NCBI RefSeq assembly: GCF_029238425.1
Contig: NZ_JAQWGB010000101.1
Coordinates: 1 to 64,000, forward strand
DNA length: 64,000 nucleotides
Direction of reading: 5' to 3'
From: Flavicella sp.
GTDB taxonomy: Bacteria; Bacteroidota; Bacteroidia; Flavobacteriales; Flavobacteriaceae
Every line of letters starts with the position of its first letter. Position 1 is the stretch's first letter. A program made the translations under genes and the position numbers. The notes under the pieces were generated by a model, which was not told the DNA's origin, did not search any database, and worked only from the letters and a program-made list of their open reading frames with translations. This document shows positions 20,112-31,453 of this stretch, piece after piece.

Positions 20112-20945
20112 TTAGGCTCTTAAAGAATTTAACTCCTTCAGCAATATTTGAATTTCTTTTTCTAACTCTTTTTCTGAAGTTAGATTAGTTTCTAAAGCTA
20201 GTAACCTTTGATATTCTTCAGATACTTTCTGTGTATTTCCCTGCTCTTTTGCAATCAAAGCTTTTACCCAAACAGCAGCTAATTGGTAATCCTTATTTTC
20301 ACTTAGCTCGCCCACCGTTGCCAAAGCCTCTGCTTTTTTATAGTTTCTATTCAATAAAGTTTCAATAGGTGCCACATTTTCCTTTCCATATGTTGCTTCC
20401 AATATTTCTTTCTCCGTTTTTTCTTCAGTATTTGCTTTAGTTCTCTCATCCAAATCTTTCAACATTTCGGTTTGTACAGCAATGGATTTCTGGTTGTTTT
20501 CCATACTATTAGTGTCTCCTATATATGAGGTTAACAAACCTGCAGAAGTTAATTGTCTATCTCCAGACAAAACACCTATTAAAGTCAATAATCCACCTGC
20601 TGCTCTGGTCGTTTCAATCCCTAATCTTTTGGACTGTAATTTTTCTAACTGCAAAGCATAGATATTTTCATCTCCAGTAAATTCGATTTCAATATGTTTG
20701 TATTTTTCTTTACCTAATTTTTTCATTGCTCGTTCATAGGCATCAAAAAAATCCGTACTGATTTTTTTGACATCTTCATAAGCTAATTTTTCTTTGGAAT
20801 TTAATTTGATACTTCTCGATCCAATTGTATAAGAATCATACGAAACTTTTTCAATACTGTTATCCTTTTTTAAAACTTCTATTTGTTGTGGGAAACCGCT
20901 AAAAGAAATCAGTGCCAATACTAGTGTAAAAATTTTAGTTTTCAT
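20112..20945 (-). CDS. Exported protein of unknown function
   Basis: Signal peptide MKTKIFTLVLALISFSGFPQQ; intact ORF. Confidence 0.7.
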   Translation of the reverse strand: MKTKIFTLVLALISFSGFPQQIEVLKKDNSIEKVSYDSYTIGSRSIKLNSKEKLAYEDVKKISTDFFDAYERAMKKLGKEKYKHIEIEFTGDENIYALQLEKLQSKRLGIETTRAAGGLLTLIGVLSGDRQLTSAGLLTSYIGDTNSMENNQKSIAVQTEMLKDLDERTKANTEEKTEKEILEATYGKENVAPIETLLNRNYKKAEALATVGELSENKDYQLAAVWVKALIAKEQGNTQKVSEEYQRLLALETNLTSEKELEKEIQILLKELNSLRA

Positions 20946-20985
20946 TTTAATAGATTTTAAGTTAATTCATCTTTCTATTGATAAT

Positions 20986-21010
20986 AGCGTATGAAGTTCC
21001 TTAAACCCCT
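20986..21010 (-). promoter_or_regulatory. Candidate ECF promoter motif site A (upstream of 20945)
   Basis: Minus strand AGGGGTTTAAGGAACTTCA-TACGCTATT; shared with three other local promoters. Confidence 0.5.
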
Positions 21011-21056
21011 AAAAAAAATTCTAGGATGTGATTTTAAAAAAAAATAAATTTGAATT

Positions 21057-21084
21057 TGGGTTTTCCATCAATCCTTACGCTATT
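21057..21084 (+). promoter_or_regulatory. Candidate ECF promoter motif site B (upstream of 21135)
   Basis: TGGGTTTTCCATCAATCCT-TACGCTATT, same 19-nt offset as sites A and C. Confidence 0.5.
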
Positions 21085-21134
21085 GTAAATGAAGGCACAA
21101 TTTAATGCCTCATTAAAATTAAAAATCTAACATC

Positions 21135-21893
21135 ATGAAAAAATTAATTTACCTAGCATTTATCTTAATCAGTGGTATCTCTTTTGCACAAAACACTGAA
21201 AACTAAGAAGCACAAATAGACGCTTCAAAGCCAACCAACTTTTATTCTTTTATAGACAACACACTTGAAGTTGCAGCCGGAGAGAATCAAAATATTATGG
21301 GATACCGAGGAAAACTGACTTTAGCTCCCTCAGAAGCTCATTTGGTATTGGCAGAAGTTCCTATTTTATACAACGACAAAACAAAAAAAGCTGGTTTTGG
21401 TGATATTAGAGCAAGATATTTTTATCTACCTTATAAAAACTATGATAAATTTGTGGGTGCCTTTGGTCCTTCCGTAGACATATTTGCTCCGACAGCTAGT
21501 TTTGAAGATGGCTTAGGATCTGGAAGATTTATAGTTTCTCCCGGTATCACTGTCGGTTTAATGGCTTCAGAAACCATTCAATTTTTCCCAATTTTATCGT
21601 ATCAATACTCTGGTAAACCTACATACGACAATCCAGCACCTGCCTTGGATACAGCTTTGCATGGAATCTCTTTTCAAGTAATTACACCTATTGTTTTTTC
21701 AGAAAAATTCTTTACACAGATCACTCCAATTTACAAAATGAACGACATCAATAATGAAAAAAATGATCGTTTTGAACAAGAAATATTTGCTGCATATTCT
21801 TTAACTCCAAAATTGCAGGTAACAGGATATTACAACGGAAAATTTGAAGATAAAATCCATACGGTAAGTGCTGGGTTAACAATGTTTTTCTAG
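21135..21893 (+). pseudogene. Outer-membrane/exported protein gene interrupted by in-frame TAA at 21204-21206 just after the signal peptide
   Basis: ATG 21135 encodes MKKLIYLAFILISGISFAQNTEN*EAQIDASKPTNFYSFIDNTLEVAAGENQNIMGYRGK..., the same frame as the listed 21297-21893 ORF. Confidence 0.75.
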
Positions 21894-22006: not shown

Positions 22007-22915
22007 ATGGACATTCAAAAAATTGAAAATAAAACTCTTTGGATTACTGTCATGGCAAATCTTGTATTCGCCATTGCCGGTTGGGTTACCTATCAATATA
22101 CCGGATCTGAAGCAATGTTAATGGATGGAAACTTTTCTTTTGCTTTGGGTTTTGCAACTCTTTTAGCTATTTATATTTCCAAACACAAACACAAAAAAAC
22201 AGCAGTTTTCCCTTATGGTCAATTTGTTTATGAAGCTGCCTTTGTGCTTTCTAAAGGATTATTAATCCTAGGAATCATCGTCATGGCGCTCTCTCAAAAC
22301 ACCCTAAAAATTATCAACTTTTTTCAAGGAGAAAAAATTACACCTATCGTAATGACACCCATTTATTATTATGTAGGATTTGTGTTGGTGATGACCTTTG
22401 CACTGTTATACTACTTTAAAAAGCAAAATCAGAAAACGAACCATAAAAGCAGCCTGTTACTTGTAGAAGCTGAAAGTGCAAAAGTTGATGGTATTCTAAC
22501 TTCAGTTACTGGATTTGCCTTTTTTTTACTCTCATTTATTTCTATTGGATCAAAAATTGATTTTATGATCTTCATAGGAGATTCCATCATCGTAATATTA
22601 ATGTGTTTGATTATGATTCAAAGCCCCTTAAAAATTATCAAAGATGCATTTATTGAATTAAGCGGGGGAACCCTACAAAACAAGGAGGACAAGATACTTA
22701 TTGAAACTACGATTGAAAAAGTTATTTCTAAAGGAATATCTTATGAAACGTATATTTCAAAGGTTGGCTCTGGGTATTTAATTGTTATCTATTTAAATCC
22801 AAACACAGAAACCATTTCACTAACCTCATTTGGTGGCATTCAAGAAAAACTTAAAAACCAACTAATTCCTGTTTTTAAATTTGTGGAGGTTGAAATGGTC
22901 ATCCGACCTAAATAA
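22007..22915 (+). CDS. Cation diffusion facilitator (CDF)-like transporter
   Basis: Multiple TM segments; MLMDGNFSFALGFATLLAIYISKHKHKKTAVFPYGQ, AESAKVDGILTS; C-terminal cytoplasmic domain. Confidence 0.75.
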   Translation: MDIQKIENKTLWITVMANLVFAIAGWVTYQYTGSEAMLMDGNFSFALGFATLLAIYISKHKHKKTAVFPYGQFVYEAAFVLSKGLLILGIIVMALSQNTLKIINFFQGEKITPIVMTPIYYYVGFVLVMTFALLYYFKKQNQKTNHKSSLLLVEAESAKVDGILTSVTGFAFFLLSFISIGSKIDFMIFIGDSIIVILMCLIMIQSPLKIIKDAFIELSGGTLQNKEDKILIETTIEKVISKGISYETYISKVGSGYLIVIYLNPNTETISLTSFGGIQEKLKNQLIPVFKFVEVEMVIRPK

Positions 22916-23633
22916 CGCATCGAATGATGGCTATATCATCCCCTGCAATAAATTTTTTATCGATAAGATCAGCATAACTTTCTTCAAAATAACGTTTGTT
23001 ATTTTTCGTTGATTTTTCATTTAAAAACAATTCTAAAGGATTTATTTTAGAAGTTTTATGCGTCAATTTCAAAAGTCCATCTGTAGCTATTGCAATATCC
23101 TCTACCTTATCAAAACACCAACTTTGGATATCGTTTTCTAACACATTCTCAAAAGAATCGGCCAAATGATAGCCTAAAAAATTAGGCACATTGTTTTGAT
23201 CTATCTCTGTGATTTTTCCATTCACTGAAAAAATCCCATCACCACTCATATGAATCGAAGCTGTTTTATTTTTTGTATCTAAAACCAGTAAATTAAGTGT
23301 TGCCAACACTTCTTCCAACTGAAGAAAAAATAATTTCTTAGCTTTTTTCAAATCTTGAAATAATTGACTTAGAATGTATTCCCCTATTTCATTTGGAGCC
23401 ATGGTCTCTAAATCAAAATCGTCTAAAATTTCTTTCATTTGAGGAAGTACTCGGCAGGTTTTATATATTGATTTTGCATACATCCCAGACACAAAATGAC
23501 TATCCCGTCCAGAAGAACAGCCATCCATAACCGCAAAGACAAGGATGTTTGGATTCAACTGATGTTGAAACAAAAAATCTTCGTTAAAATTAGCATGATA
23601 AATGCTTCGCTTTAAAAGTGATAATATTTCCAT
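22908..23633 (-). CDS. PP2C-like protein phosphatase
   Basis: VFAVMDGCSSGRDSHFVSGMYA, IHMSGDGIFSVNG, IAIATDGLLKL, AGDDIAII. ORF opens at TTG 23639; ATG 23633 preferred. Confidence 0.75.
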   Translation of the reverse strand: MEILSLLKRSIYHANFNEDFLFQHQLNPNILVFAVMDGCSSGRDSHFVSGMYAKSIYKTCRVLPQMKEILDDFDLETMAPNEIGEYILSQLFQDLKKAKKLFFLQLEEVLATLNLLVLDTKNKTASIHMSGDGIFSVNGKITEIDQNNVPNFLGYHLADSFENVLENDIQSWCFDKVEDIAIATDGLLKLTHKTSKINPLELFLNEKSTKNNKRYFEESYADLIDKKFIAGDDIAIIRCVI

Positions 23634-23661
23634 AGACAAAGAGTAAATTGTTGTTATTACT

Positions 23662-23689
23662 AACAGCGTAAATTTTGTGAAAAAACCCT
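23662..23689 (-). promoter_or_regulatory. Candidate ECF promoter motif site C (upstream of the phosphatase)
   Basis: Minus strand AGGGTTTTTTCACAAAATT-TACGCTGTT, 19-nt offset. Confidence 0.5.
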
Positions 23690-23691
23690 AA

Positions 23692-26022
23692 TTAAGAATA
23701 TACATCGTAGGTATTCCACCAGTTTTTAGCATCTTGTCTTGTCCATGGGTATTCTTTATTTTTTTCTTCAAAAAAAGCAATTAGTACATCAATAGATTCA
23801 GGTCGTTTGTTAGGATCAAATCGAATACATTCTCCTAAAAAATTACTCAAATCGGTAGGTATATCTTTTCTTTCTATCAATTGACTTCTAAAATCACCTT
23901 GCAACGTTTGTTCTCCCGACAACATTTTTTGAGAAATCAATTCTAACAAATACTGTCCACTAAACAAATACATTCCCAGTGCACCAATGGAATAAATATC
24001 GACACGTTGATCTGCATTAAAAGGGTCTCTAATACGTTCTGGGGCCATAAACATAGGTGTTCCTCCAATTCTGTTGATTTGAGTTTGTTGTGAAATTGAA
24101 GTATCTACTTCTTTCACCAAACCAAAATCTAACAATTTCACCAAATCAAAAGCACCTCCTTGATCGCATAGCATTACATTCATAGGTTTTATATCTCTAT
24201 GAACCAATCCTTTTTCATGGGCTTCTTTTAATGATAAACACAGATGATACAAAATATAAATTCCTCTTGCCAATGGAATATCAGCATTCATATTCACCAC
24301 TTTATCTAAAGAAATTCCATTTAAGTATTCCATGACATAATAAAAATTATTATCGTCAGTGGTTCCGTAATCGTAAACTTTTATCGTATTCGGATGCGAT
24401 AAAGAAGAGGTGATTTTTACTTCCTTTTCAAATCGCTCTAACATATCTGTATTGACAAATTCTGTTTTTAAAACTTTGATCGCAACAGGTGTTTTCAAAA
24501 ATGTATGTTCGGCTTTAAAAACTTGTCCAAAACCTCCTTCTCCCAATTTCTCTTTAAGCTTATATTGCCCCAACACACTAAAATCATCAACTTTTTTACC
24601 GATTCTAGCGATTCTTACATTTGAATTGAATAACAAAAATGATAATAGTAGTATCACAGTAAAAAATACAATAAATGTATATTTAAAATACATCAACGAA
24701 GCTAAAGCCTCCTCATAATCCTCCTCGGTAATGATTCCAAAATTATATTCAGGCAACCAAACATAAGCTCCAATAACCTCTATTCCTCTGTAATCTCTAT
24801 AAGGTTCCATAATTGCTCCAGTAAAGGTGCTGTCGTTTGCCTTGATACGATTGAGAGCCATTTCAACAATTTCAGTATAAGGTTGCGCTACTTTTTGAAG
24901 TCTGGGAGTTGCGCCTTTCATGACGTTTACTCCTGGGTCTCTTAAATCTATATTATAAATGGTTTCGGCATTGGCATCAAATTCCAACAAATGAGTGTTT
25001 CTTAATTGCTCCGTAAACCTGCTAGAAGACAGCATTTTACCATCTTCATTAAAAGCATAAGTTTCACTTGTTGCACCATGTTTAGAAACTTTTAAAATAT
25101 TTGAAAATCCCTTAATTGCTAAATAAGAACCACACAGTATGGTTTTAACTTCTCCATTTTCATCAAACACAGGGCACAAAAAATTAATCCAAGCTTGTTT
25201 CTCTACTCCCTTGTCATAATTATTTATCAAATCTAAATTATTGATAGGTGGTATAAACACCACCTCACCGGTACGAGCCCTCAAATAATCTTTATATATA
25301 ATCTCTCCCAAATCTGCACCAAACATCTTGGTAACACCTGTAGAATCTACAATGGAAGTACTTAACAAATCTTTAGGGCTGCTATTACTCAACAAGGAAA
25401 TAATTCCATATCCACTGGATTTTTTATTTTTTTTAAGCCACTTTGTTACTTCTACAGCTGTTTTAGAACCTCGAAGTAGTTGATAGCTTTCATCTAAATT
25501 TTCTAAACTATCGATTGATTTAGAAAAACGTACTATGGTTTCTTGCTCGGCAAAACTTTTGATTTTTTCTTTTTCATACTGCAACCAACGTTGAAATATT
25601 TCAGTGGTTGTATTGATAAGTGCTATTTTTTCTTCCTTTTCAGAAGCTAGGATATTATTTCGAATATACCCTCCAGATAAAATCCCTCCACTTAAAAGAA
25701 GAAGTAAAAAAAAGATGACTAAAATTAATCTATTTCTTTTGTTCCCAAATAAGTTTTTGGTCCAACTGCTTACAACCTTAGAACGAAAAACAGAGTCTTT
25801 CCTTCCGATTAATTTTGTTTTGGTAAAAGTCGTCTCGTCGGTGTTATTGTCTTTTTCTACTTCTTCTGCATAGATTTCATTATACAAGGCTAAGGTCTCT
25901 TTTCTTAGTTGTTCATCCGATTCAGATAGCTCATTAATTTTTTTGATCGCTTCTTGAAAGGGTAAATCTAAAACCTTCGCTAATATTTCTGATGATTTTT
26001 CATGTAAGCTTTGATCATTCAT
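23692..26022 (-). CDS. Transmembrane Ser/Thr protein kinase with extracytoplasmic Cache-like sensor domain
   Basis: Two TM segments flank a ~330-aa sensor region; kinase motifs LGEGGFGQVFKAE, AIKVLK, HRDIKPMNVM, DFGLVKE, APERIRDP. Confidence 0.9.
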   Translation of the reverse strand: MNDQSLHEKSSEILAKVLDLPFQEAIKKINELSESDEQLRKETLALYNEIYAEEVEKDNNTDETTFTKTKLIGRKDSVFRSKVVSSWTKNLFGNKRNRLILVIFFLLLLLSGGILSGGYIRNNILASEKEEKIALINTTTEIFQRWLQYEKEKIKSFAEQETIVRFSKSIDSLENLDESYQLLRGSKTAVEVTKWLKKNKKSSGYGIISLLSNSSPKDLLSTSIVDSTGVTKMFGADLGEIIYKDYLRARTGEVVFIPPINNLDLINNYDKGVEKQAWINFLCPVFDENGEVKTILCGSYLAIKGFSNILKVSKHGATSETYAFNEDGKMLSSSRFTEQLRNTHLLEFDANAETIYNIDLRDPGVNVMKGATPRLQKVAQPYTEIVEMALNRIKANDSTFTGAIMEPYRDYRGIEVIGAYVWLPEYNFGIITEEDYEEALASLMYFKYTFIVFFTVILLLSFLLFNSNVRIARIGKKVDDFSVLGQYKLKEKLGEGGFGQVFKAEHTFLKTPVAIKVLKTEFVNTDMLERFEKEVKITSSLSHPNTIKVYDYGTTDDNNFYYVMEYLNGISLDKVVNMNADIPLARGIYILYHLCLSLKEAHEKGLVHRDIKPMNVMLCDQGGAFDLVKLLDFGLVKEVDTSISQQTQINRIGGTPMFMAPERIRDPFNADQRVDIYSIGALGMYLFSGQYLLELISQKMLSGEQTLQGDFRSQLIERKDIPTDLSNFLGECIRFDPNKRPESIDVLIAFFEEKNKEYPWTRQDAKNWWNTYDVYS

Positions 26023-26576
26023 ATATCACTTTGCATAAATTTCTTTAACCAAGCTTTCGCAACTTTCCAGTCGATTTCAATTGTTTTTATTGAAACTCCC
26101 AATTCATCCGCGATCTCTTGCATTTTCATTCCTCCAAAAAATTTCAATTCTACTACTTTCGCTTGTCTTTCATGAACTCGTTCTAAATGCTCTAAAGCCT
26201 CATCGATATCCAAAAGATTGCCTTCCTTTTCTGGAGTATACGCAATTCCTTCCTCTAAATCAATACGCTGCGCCCCGGCACCACGTTTATTCGCATTTTT
26301 TTTACGCGCATGATCTACCAAAATCCTGCGAATTGCCTGCGCACCCACCGCAAAAAAATGAGAACGCCCTTTCCAATCTATATGATCCTGATCTACCAAA
26401 CTCATATAAGCTTCATTCACCAAAAGAGTCGGCTGTAAGGTGTGTCCTTTTTTTTCTCTTGCGTATAACTTTTCTGCAATCAAATGTAAATTGTCATACA
26501 CCAAAGGATATAATTGAGCATCTCTACGTTCTAAAGAACTATCATTTAAAATTTTAGTTACATTCTTTTTGTCCAT
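26019..26576 (-). CDS. ECF-type RNA polymerase sigma factor (kinase-associated type)
   Basis: KKGHTLQPTLLVNEAYMSLVDQ, RRILVDHARKKNANKRG, MKMQEIADELGVSIKTIEIDWKVAKAWL; 4-bp overlap with the kinase ORF. Confidence 0.9.
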   Translation of the reverse strand: MDKKNVTKILNDSSLERRDAQLYPLVYDNLHLIAEKLYAREKKGHTLQPTLLVNEAYMSLVDQDHIDWKGRSHFFAVGAQAIRRILVDHARKKNANKRGAGAQRIDLEEGIAYTPEKEGNLLDIDEALEHLERVHERQAKVVELKFFGGMKMQEIADELGVSIKTIEIDWKVAKAWLKKFMQSDI

Positions 26577-26628: not shown

Positions 26629-27396
26629 ATGACCTATTTATTGATCACATTGTTGATACAAATTTTTGGTTCTGATTCTGACGAGATTTTCATGGTTCCC
26701 GAAGTTATGGAACAAATAAAAAAACATGTTGAGGATGAAGATAGAAAAGACAAAGTGGTGGCATGGATGAAAGAGGGTAAAACGGAAATCAAAGCCAATA
26801 GAAAAACTCATAAAAAGTATTTAAAGTCTTTAAAAAAATCATTGAGCAAAGATCATATTTCTTCTGAAGAAGTGAAGTCTATTATTTTTAACGACTTCAA
26901 CGCTTCCAAAGAAATGCACACAAAATTAATTTCCTTGCGCTTAAAAATTCAAGAGGAGTTGAAACAAAACGAATGGGATAAAATCATATCCCTGGCTTTA
27001 GAACCCACTGAAAAAAGAACTAAAAAGAATAAAAAATCTCTCCAAAAAGAAAAAGAGGCTTTTGAAGATCTTTTGCAAAAAACTAAATTCAAAGTCGATG
27101 AAATCATTACCTCTTCAGAAAAAAAAGAAATTATCAAACAAGCTTTTGGTGTTTTTATGAAAGAGATCAAAGAACAATTTGAATACAATCAAGAATATAC
27201 GTATTCAAAAAATGCTGTGTTGAGGGATAAAAATGCTACCAAAGAAATGCTTGAAAATATAATCAACCAAAAAAACCAAGTCCGCTTAGAGGTTCATGAA
27301 TCTTTTCACTCCTTTTTTAAAATCGCAAAAGAAAACACTACCGATCAAGAATGGGAAGCCATTAGAAACGCTATCAAAAAAATGATATCCCATTAA
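26629..27396 (+). CDS. Lys-rich helical exported protein of unknown function; paralogue of 30689-31453
   Basis: Hydrophobic N-terminus; collinear similarity with the 254-aa product of 30689-31453. Confidence 0.65.
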   Translation: MTYLLITLLIQIFGSDSDEIFMVPEVMEQIKKHVEDEDRKDKVVAWMKEGKTEIKANRKTHKKYLKSLKKSLSKDHISSEEVKSIIFNDFNASKEMHTKLISLRLKIQEELKQNEWDKIISLALEPTEKRTKKNKKSLQKEKEAFEDLLQKTKFKVDEIITSSEKKEIIKQAFGVFMKEIKEQFEYNQEYTYSKNAVLRDKNATKEMLENIINQKNQVRLEVHESFHSFFKIAKENTTDQEWEAIRNAIKKMISH

Positions 27397-27540: not shown

Positions 27541-28740
27541 ATGAAAAATTCAAACATCACAAAAACTACTTTAATTGCCGTAATCGTTCTTTTGATTACA
27601 GGCTTTACAACAACAGTAAAAGAAGACATTAAAATTCCAGAAGTAACAAAACACGACGGAATATATTATCTAACTATTGATGGAAAAACACCATTTGCAA
27701 AAGGCTACCAACACGGAGTGGCTTTGAAAGAAGTAATTCAAAAATCAATGATAGATTTTGACACTTGGGTCATTTCTAATTCTGACTATAAAAACAGCAA
27801 AGAAATGGCTACTGACTTCATTCAAAAAACAAATTATTTACAAGATGTAAAAACCTTTACTCCTGATTTGTATTCAGAACTTACAGGAATGGCCGAAGGG
27901 TCAGATGTTGATTTAAAAACGTTGTTTCTTTACAATAGTTTTGATGAATACATTGCTTTTTTAATGGAACATAAACCAAGTATAGAACAAATAGCACACT
28001 GCACAACCACAGGAGTTTTTGGGAGAACAGACAAACCAAACTTTGTGACTCATAACAATGATTTGATGTTAATTTTTTCCAACAAAGTAGTCGTGTCAAA
28101 AATTATCGATACCGAAAAAAAGGTAGAAATCATGCAAACAAGTTTTGCAGGTATATTCGCACAAAACGGTGTGAATAATTATGGAGTAGCTGTTGGTTGT
28201 AATATTTTAGTGGACTTAGAAAGAAACCACAACGGACTTCCTGTAGCCTTTAACAACAGAAAAATTCTAGAAACAAAAAACATTCAAGAAGCTAAAGAAT
28301 ATTTACAAAGTGTTCCTTCTGCTCAAGCCATGAATTACATGATTGGCGATAGAGATAAAGTCATTTCATTTGAGGTTACCGGAAACGGAAATGTATATGA
28401 TGTATCGAACTTTCAAGAAGGGTACACCGTTCATACAAATCATACCCTAAACAAAAACGCAAACAAAGTAAGAGACATAACATCAACTCAGCCTTCAACA
28501 GCTAAAACAGTTGAAAGATTAGAAAAAGCAGCCAGTGTTTTAGCTGAAAACCATCAAACGATAACTACGCAAGGAATAAAAAATTTAAAAAGCACCAAGC
28601 CTATAAGGATCAATGAAGAAGGCTCCATTACGCAAACTATAGAAAGCGTTATTATGGAAATTCCAAAAACAGGAAAACCCATTTTATATGTAACCAATGG
28701 TTTGCCAAATGGTGATAACTACGTAAAATTTGAATTCTAA
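27541..28740 (+). CDS. Exported C45-family (acyl-CoA:6-APA acyltransferase-like) Ntn hydrolase
   Basis: PFAKGYQHGVALKEVI; HCTTTGVFG with candidate N-terminal nucleophile Cys; THNNDL; NNYGVAVGCN. Confidence 0.75.
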   Translation: MKNSNITKTTLIAVIVLLITGFTTTVKEDIKIPEVTKHDGIYYLTIDGKTPFAKGYQHGVALKEVIQKSMIDFDTWVISNSDYKNSKEMATDFIQKTNYLQDVKTFTPDLYSELTGMAEGSDVDLKTLFLYNSFDEYIAFLMEHKPSIEQIAHCTTTGVFGRTDKPNFVTHNNDLMLIFSNKVVVSKIIDTEKKVEIMQTSFAGIFAQNGVNNYGVAVGCNILVDLERNHNGLPVAFNNRKILETKNIQEAKEYLQSVPSAQAMNYMIGDRDKVISFEVTGNGNVYDVSNFQEGYTVHTNHTLNKNANKVRDITSTQPSTAKTVERLEKAASVLAENHQTITTQGIKNLKSTKPIRINEEGSITQTIESVIMEIPKTGKPILYVTNGLPNGDNYVKFEF

Positions 28741-30688: not shown

Positions 30689-31453
30689 ATGATATTTATA
30701 CTAATTTCTCTTCTAAGCACTATATTGATCAATGGTCCCGAACAAATATTCATGGCCACGGATATCGTCAAAGAAATTAAACACAATGTAAAAGACAACA
30801 ACAGAAAAACCTATGTGTTGAAAATTATGAAGGAGGCGAAATCTGAGATCAAAGCTTATCAAAAAAATTATGAGAAAAATGAAAAGAAGGTAAAAAAACT
30901 ATTGAACAAAGACTTGGTCAGCTTAAATGACATAAAAATTATTGTAGATGAAAATCTAGTAACAAGAAAAAAACTACAGCGGTATATGGTAGCTAGCAGA
31001 CTCTTGGTTCAGGATTCCTTAACGGACAATGAATGGGTTTTGATTCTTGAAAAAAGCAACACAATTTCTGCAAAGAAAAAAAAGAAACAATTAAAAAAGC
31101 ATAAAAAAGATGTAGAAAAGCTAAAAGAGTTTGTCATTGCTTTTAAAGATGAAATTAATAAAACTAGGGCTACCCCAACTGCTAAAGAAAAAATAATATC
31201 CACATTTGATGCTTTTATCGAAGACTATAAAAACCAGTTAAAGGTTGCTCAAGAACTTTCTTTTTCTAAGAGTAAAACTTTAAACAACAAATATGCACCA
31301 CAGGCAGAGCTGATTGATATTTACACCCAACAAAATAACGTGAGAACACAAGTGAGAAATTCTTTTTACAAACTTTTTGAAATCACTCAAGAAAATACCA
31401 GTGAAAGAGAATGGGTACAAATAAGAAAGGAACTAAAAACACTATTCAAATAA
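30689..31453 (+). CDS. Lys-rich helical exported protein of unknown function; paralogue of 26629-27396
   Basis: Similar length and layout to 26629-27396 (EQIFMATDIVKEIK vs DEIFMVPEVMEQIK; conserved C-terminal KxENTSEREWVQIRKELK). Confidence 0.65.
   Translation: MIFILISLLSTILINGPEQIFMATDIVKEIKHNVKDNNRKTYVLKIMKEAKSEIKAYQKNYEKNEKKVKKLLNKDLVSLNDIKIIVDENLVTRKKLQRYMVASRLLVQDSLTDNEWVLILEKSNTISAKKKKKQLKKHKKDVEKLKEFVIAFKDEINKTRATPTAKEKIISTFDAFIEDYKNQLKVAQELSFSKSKTLNNKYAPQAELIDIYTQQNNVRTQVRNSFYKLFEITQENTSEREWVQIRKELKTLFK

Follow-up and report, generated by a model that had tools for sequence, protein, structure and literature searches.

A putative kinase, sigma factor and phosphatase signalling module with a reversed-topology receptor kinase in Flavicella and other Bacteroidota

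The window (the whole stretch of Flavicella sp. DNA analyzed here, 64,000 nucleotides) encodes an ECF sigma factor, a receptor Ser/Thr kinase, and a PP2C-type phosphatase that probably constitute one signalling module: a ligand would be sensed by the dCache kinase, the kinase would phosphorylate the sigma factor, the phospho-sigma would direct expression of exported hydrolases and beta-barrel proteins, and the PP2C would provide negative feedback. What the analysis showed is the anatomy of the locus, the conservation and co-occurrence of its components, and their association with a promoter motif. The core is a switch of a known kind; apparently new are the reversed layout of the sensor, the proposed feedback through a phosphatase, and a target-gene set that can be recovered. 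The three genes and their parts are as follows.

26019..26576, minus strand: ECF sigma factor, 185 aa (PF07638 Sigma70_ECF / TIGR02999 Sig-70_X6, 'LVNEA' subtype)
26424..26435, minus strand: uncharged quartet Q48-P49-T50-L51 in the DAED register; T50, the predicted phosphosite, at 26427-26429
26235..26237, minus strand: Thr114 in the linker, a candidate second phosphosite and possible counterpart of EcfK T106
23692..26022, minus strand: receptor Ser/Thr kinase of reversed topology, 776 aa (Pkinase, 158.9 bits)
25867..26022, minus strand: kinase residues 1-52, N-terminal domain, candidate sigma-docking domain (hhalign)
25663..25734, minus strand: transmembrane segment 1, residues ~97-120 (hydropathy)
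24727..25653, minus strand: double-Cache sensor domain, residues 124-432 (dCache_1, 26 bits, and structural model)
24616..24687, minus strand: transmembrane segment 2, residues ~446-469 (hydropathy)
23794..24564, minus strand: protein kinase domain, residues 487-743 (PF00069, E 2e-46)
22908..23633, minus strand: PP2C-type protein phosphatase, third operon gene, just downstream of the kinase (PF13672)

The sigma factor belongs to both PF07638 and TIGR02999, exceeding the curated cut-off of each (171.6 bits against 21.1 in Pfam; 198.5 bits against 126.15 in NCBIfam). A PDB sequence search with it as the query gave no match, and its AlphaFold model was poor (pLDDT 59) and was set aside. The segment KKGHTLQPTLLVNEAYMSL was confirmed in the window sequence. 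The original prediction had LQPT replacing the acidic segment of ECF sigma factors; the segment is indeed uncharged, but the DAED register gives Q48-P49-T50-L51 as the quartet. According to PMC8999054 and PMC13147305, the activating phosphate of EcfP (STTA) and EcfK (Q49-A-T51-E) sits on the Thr at the third quartet position, and T50 aligns with EcfK T51 and the EcfP phospho-Thr (Q-x-T). Since QPTL falls in this published register, the earlier guess that the Thr of LQPT is a candidate site was right, and the window sigma shares with ECF43 an uncharged DAED replacement with Thr at the phosphorylated position (QPTL and T50; Q49, T51, and H55 in EcfK, PMC13147305). T50 was kept in 60/61 Bacteroidota TIGR02999 sigmas and in 19/19 members of the 'LVNEA' subtype, with equal conservation in the few TIGR02999 members without a nearby kinase. 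The following residue is acidic in about half of the Bacteroidota TIGR02999 relatives and is Leu in the window sigma. LQPT was ruled out as a peculiarity of the window sigma, as the segment was found across TIGR02999; because this family is known for kinase pairing and 56/60 of its sampled Bacteroidota loci had a kinase nearby, the LQPT-type uncharged segment reads as a signature of the whole family.

The window kinase comprises a cytoplasmic N-terminal domain, a transmembrane segment, a dCache domain, a second transmembrane segment, and a C-terminal Hanks kinase domain. Its catalytic motifs (GEGGFG, K516, E534, HRDIKPMN, D632-F-G, and APE) are intact, as had been claimed, and were invariant in relatives. 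A Cache-like domain between two transmembrane segments had also been proposed, and here hydropathy and an AlphaFold2 model agreed. Pfam dCache_1 matched residues 124-432 weakly and below its cut-off (26 bits against 45); the dCache fold is indicated by the predicted structure of the sensor stretch (pLDDT 82), whose top PDB matches were dCache chemoreceptor sensor domains (E 4e-9). In the usual sigma-linked kinases of Bacteroidota, the catalytic domain starts at residue ~72-134, with one outlier, compared with residue 487 in the window type. In the dCache kinases, the first ~52 residues show homology to the stretch that lies ahead of the catalytic domain in the usual kinases (comparison of the two families by hhalign: probability 98.2, E 3.4e-14), and 15/15 dCache kinases matched the HMM of the usual kinases, the window's own match being the weakest (E 1.7e-5). 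The sharing of this domain by oppositely arranged kinases, together with the 83-aa N-terminal extension of PknS, for which its authors consider a functional role possible (PMC13147305), points to a sigma-docking domain; it probably docks the sigma.

In the open reading frames, the sigma stop and the kinase start overlap by 4 bp (ATGA, 26019-26022), and no anti-sigma family (Pfam, NCBIfam) matched among the neighbouring genes tested, both as originally described; the window thus also has the ECF43 trait of a kinase gene adjoining the sigma gene without an anti-sigma gene. Two related proteins of 254-255 aa are encoded near the sigma (26629-27396 and 30689-31453, plus strand), the former with no Pfam or NCBIfam match, and in Flavicella a homologue is a neighbour of the sigma gene (L102 9186-9947). 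Pairing of PF07638/TIGR02999 sigmas with Ser/Thr kinases is already known. We compared 60 other Bacteroidota TIGR02999 loci taken from whole genomes; 56 had a kinase match in the fetched stretch, counting any match and including a few that were convergent or otherwise not directly downstream, and the kinase nearly always adjoined the sigma. Judged from these sequences, TIGR02999-type sigma-kinase pairs are common in Bacteroidota and the window pair is no singular find.

When a four-member alignment was searched against 85,462 species genomes, a subtype with an LVNEA mark (His to Asn) emerged. Counting the window and two plasmid loci of Persicobacter, it comprises 19 loci, from Flavicella, Carboxylicivirga, Prolixibacteraceae, Algibacter, Lutimonas, Flammeovirga, Persicobacter, and other Bacteroidia/Bacteroidales. 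Among the 19 fetched loci, which varied in gene order and orientation, 15 contained the dCache kinase, 8 contained PP2C, 6 a beta-barrel protein, and 5 a 277-aa exported protein. The dCache kinase was present in each of the 12 sigma-carrying genomes tested; it was on a separate contig from the sigma in Carboxylicivirga and Prolixibacteraceae and far from it in Persicobacter. Across the 201 genomes of the window's family, the sigma was found in two and the kinase in the same two, being absent from 199/199 sigma-less genomes. A sigma-less congener (G002) had no dCache kinase and retained the FtsZ-YqeY neighbourhood, with the module and its neighbours missing there. In two Persicobacter, the sigma-kinase module was plasmid-borne (L097, L098), and a promoter-like site there had ACCCAG at -10.

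The PP2C gene likely starts at ATG 23633, two codons downstream of the listed TTG 23639. Its product scored 36 bits against PF13672 (cut-off 24), and the metal-binding motifs ED, MDG, GDG, DG, and DD were retained in 9/9 homologues; the score and the metal-binding Asp motifs place it in the PP2C family. The eight subtype loci with a linked PP2C showed several gene orders and orientations, with the motif described below upstream in most, and PP2C was unlinked in the other 11/19; in Carboxylicivirga it lay away from the sigma, yet with a weaker motif site. The usual TIGR02999 sigma-kinase pairs showed no neighbouring homologue of the window PP2C in 59 loci.

Upstream regions of the module-linked genes shared a motif of fixed spacing, TAGGGTTTT-N12-RCSCTRTT, which also occurred before homologous genes in several orders of Bacteroidota. 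The sites in the window and the other putative targets are as follows.

23655..23690, minus strand: putative sigma-dependent promoter of the PP2C gene (exact match to the motif)
20976..21011, minus strand: putative sigma-dependent promoter of the 277-aa gene (1 mismatch, 31 bits)
20112..20945, minus strand: 277-aa exported protein, cluster c4, putative target (linked in 5/19 loci)
21056..21091, plus strand: putative sigma-dependent promoter of the beta-barrel gene (1 mismatch, 38 bits)
21135..21893, plus strand: outer-membrane beta-barrel-like protein, PF13557-like, cluster c3, putative target (linked in 6/19 loci)

These three sites compare with 0.41 expected, and 0/100 shuffles reached three. 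Genome motif counts were obtained by pattern searches, and a weight matrix was applied to loci. In the family-wide search, which covered 201 genomes as an unbiased sample, the strict motif (<=1 mismatch) was found at 5 and 6 sites in the two sigma carriers; among the 199 sigma-less genomes, 192 had none, five had one, G017 had two, and G171 had four. A reversed-pattern control matched once across all 201 genomes. The weight matrix, built from 13 seed sites (the last bases of one differ slightly from the true sequence), identified 49 unique sites of at least 20 bits in carrier loci, 48 of them intergenic and 46 facing a start, whereas other Bacteroidota loci, 573 kb in total, yielded none reaching 15 bits. 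Loci L146-L165 were picked for pattern matches, so the counts there are not an unbiased sample. Strict sites were few in the Flammeovirga and Persicobacter genomes. By association, the window sigma is the likely reader of this motif. G017 had regulon genes with sites, yet the sigma and kinase were not detected; either the sigma was lost or unassembled, or another regulator acts there. One G017 locus (L179, G017:C6:335000-350000) carried the 277-aa gene, amidohydrolases, and a beta-barrel gene with three motif sites. In sigma-less G171 (L180/L181), three of the four strict matches were copies of one sequence, and no regulon homologue lay nearby. A first, shorter promoter pattern allowing 2 mismatches had been dropped for the stricter one because of excess background.

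Genes recurring behind these sites across genera encode the PP2C, two beta-barrels, the 277-aa protein, an amidase, a choloylglycine-hydrolase-like enzyme, a DDAH/arginine-deiminase-like enzyme, amidohydrolases, and a C45 acyltransferase-like enzyme; most site-downstream proteins had signal peptides, as judged by eye. The DDAH-like enzyme was present in 4/7 carriers, which did not include the genome of the window itself, and in 0/13 non-carriers tested. The window copy of a C45-family autoproteolytic acyltransferase/hydrolase (27541-28740, plus strand) had no site above threshold, and its homologues in Lutimonas and Algibacter bear the motif. The beta-barrel gene at 21135-21893 has an in-frame TAA at 21204-21206, just after the signal peptide, and its homologue is intact in Flavicella (L102 12341-13099); the interrupted copy is either a pseudogene or an assembly error. 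A further locus (L145 7569-11714, G000:C17) contained clustered genes for small exported proteins of 117-132 aa that are related to one another, along with a lipoprotein of 175 aa; two genes there had motif sites.

For the module as a whole, we infer the ligand class, docking, phosphorylation, motif recognition, and phosphatase target as follows. A periplasmic small molecule would be bound by the dCache domain, as its fold suggests. The cytoplasmic kinase domain, with the N-terminal domain probably docking the sigma, would then phosphorylate the sigma, most likely at Thr50; by homology to EcfP and EcfK, phospho-Thr50 would give region 2.2 the negative charge of DAED and permit RNA polymerase binding. 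The activated sigma would transcribe from TAGGGTTTT-N12-RCSCTRTT promoters, the presumed targets being beta-barrel and other exported proteins in the window and, in relatives, exported amide/amidine hydrolases (amidase, choloylglycine-hydrolase-like, DDAH/arginine-deiminase-like, amidohydrolase, and C45). PP2C, itself presumably transcribed by the sigma, would remove the phosphate and close a negative feedback loop. The original prediction had not included the PP2C, had not noted that the kinase is of reversed topology and shares its N-terminal domain with the usual kinases, and had not followed the promoter sites into other genomes.

Thr50 need not be the sole switch, since EcfK T51A is still functional with linker T106 as a substitute (PMC13147305). 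This EcfK precedent, along with Ser/Thr at the T114 position in 17/19 subtype members, favours activating phosphorylation with its main switch in the sigma2-sigma4 linker (T114 region) and a minor role for T50. We consider this unlikely: both exceptions at 114 retain T50, L51 is uncharged as in EcfP, for which the region 2.2 Thr was the only phosphosite reported, and the T51A-tolerant EcfK retains Glu52 (PMC13147305).

It is similarly doubtful that the kinase is mainly a membrane tether whose N-terminal domain, in the manner of an anti-sigma factor, retains the sigma until phosphorylation of either protein frees it, Thr50 being structural. In favour of a tether are the sharing of the N-terminal domain by topologically unlike sigma-linked kinases, the retention of T50 family-wide whatever the neighbouring genes, and the dispensability of EcfK T51 when T106 is present (PMC13147305). 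Against it, phosphorylation activates both EcfP and EcfK, the EcfK T51E mutant acts without the kinase (PMC13147305 and PMC8999054), and the window quartet has no acidic residue, unlike about half of its relatives. An ordinary ECF sigma set by its expression level, with the kinase and PP2C as mere neighbours serving other substrates, is very improbable; although the link between these proteins is drawn from sequence, the sigma and kinase genes overlap translationally and co-occur across species even when unlinked, and PP2C has a sigma-type promoter in most species where it lies nearby.

With activation through Thr50 as the preferred reading, the window sigma probably works like EcfP and EcfK, a likeness of function only and no claim of ECF43 membership. 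The original prediction of a Bacteroidota counterpart of EcfP/PknT fits the T50 register, its conservation throughout the subtype, and the kinase in every carrier genome tested, but the pair is not singular. EcfP/PknT of Vibrio parahaemolyticus (ECF43) likewise lacks an acidic DAED, has Thr third in the quartet (STTA) and an adjacent Ser/Thr kinase, and has no anti-sigma, whereas the window has QPTL, Asn for the usual His at 54, a reversed kinase with a dCache sensor, PP2C in the module, and a different predicted regulon. EcfK/PknS of Xanthomonas citri (ECF43) resembles the window pair in having Thr at the matching quartet position (QATE, T51), Ser/Thr residues in the linker, and an N-terminal extension ahead of the kinase domain; the residue beside the Thr is Glu rather than the Leu of the window sigma, and PknS has an N-terminal kinase, a transmembrane segment, and a C-terminal periplasmic TPR, unlike the window kinase with its kinase domain (487-743) behind the dCache (124-432). 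The available sections of PMC13147305 describe no PP2C feedback for EcfK/PknS, and neither these nor those of PMC8999054 state how such a signal is switched off. TIGR02999/PF07638 pairs share the sigma family and the kinase N-terminal domain and differ in their early catalytic domain (from residue ~72-134) and in having no window-type PP2C beside them (59 loci). PP2C-partnered Ser/Thr kinase systems also combine kinase and phosphatase; here, the phosphatase gene is apparently a sigma target. To our knowledge, sigma phosphorylation by Hanks kinases has been demonstrated in very few systems. In this module, kinase, sigma, and phosphatase occur naturally as a set whose promoter motif can be recovered and whose regulon can be defined, and cultivated marine bacteria (Flavicella, Algibacter, Flammeovirga, and Persicobacter) carry it, so that its input, switch, output, and reset are all testable; from the common N-terminal domain comes a testable suggestion as to how such kinases recognize their sigma.

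We tentatively suggest a self-limiting switch in which the N-terminal docking domain, not the kinase architecture, may set the sigma partner, species may swap whole sensor kinases while keeping the sigma, motif, and PP2C brake, and the phosphatase may be a conserved phospho-sigma target. Phylogenetic analysis grouped the window sigma with the Flavicella sigma (95% identity, support 0.998). The window kinase grouped with those of Lutimonas and A. mikhailovii (support 1.00, dCache 61-64% identical), and the Flavicella kinase grouped with that of A. onchidii (support 1.00), its dCache being 30% identical to the window's. This apparent discordance between the trees would reflect either exchange of kinases or differential loss of paralogues. 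The -10 element ACGCT is common to the window and Flavicella and rare elsewhere, and the -10 variant therefore tracks the sigma, not the kinase.
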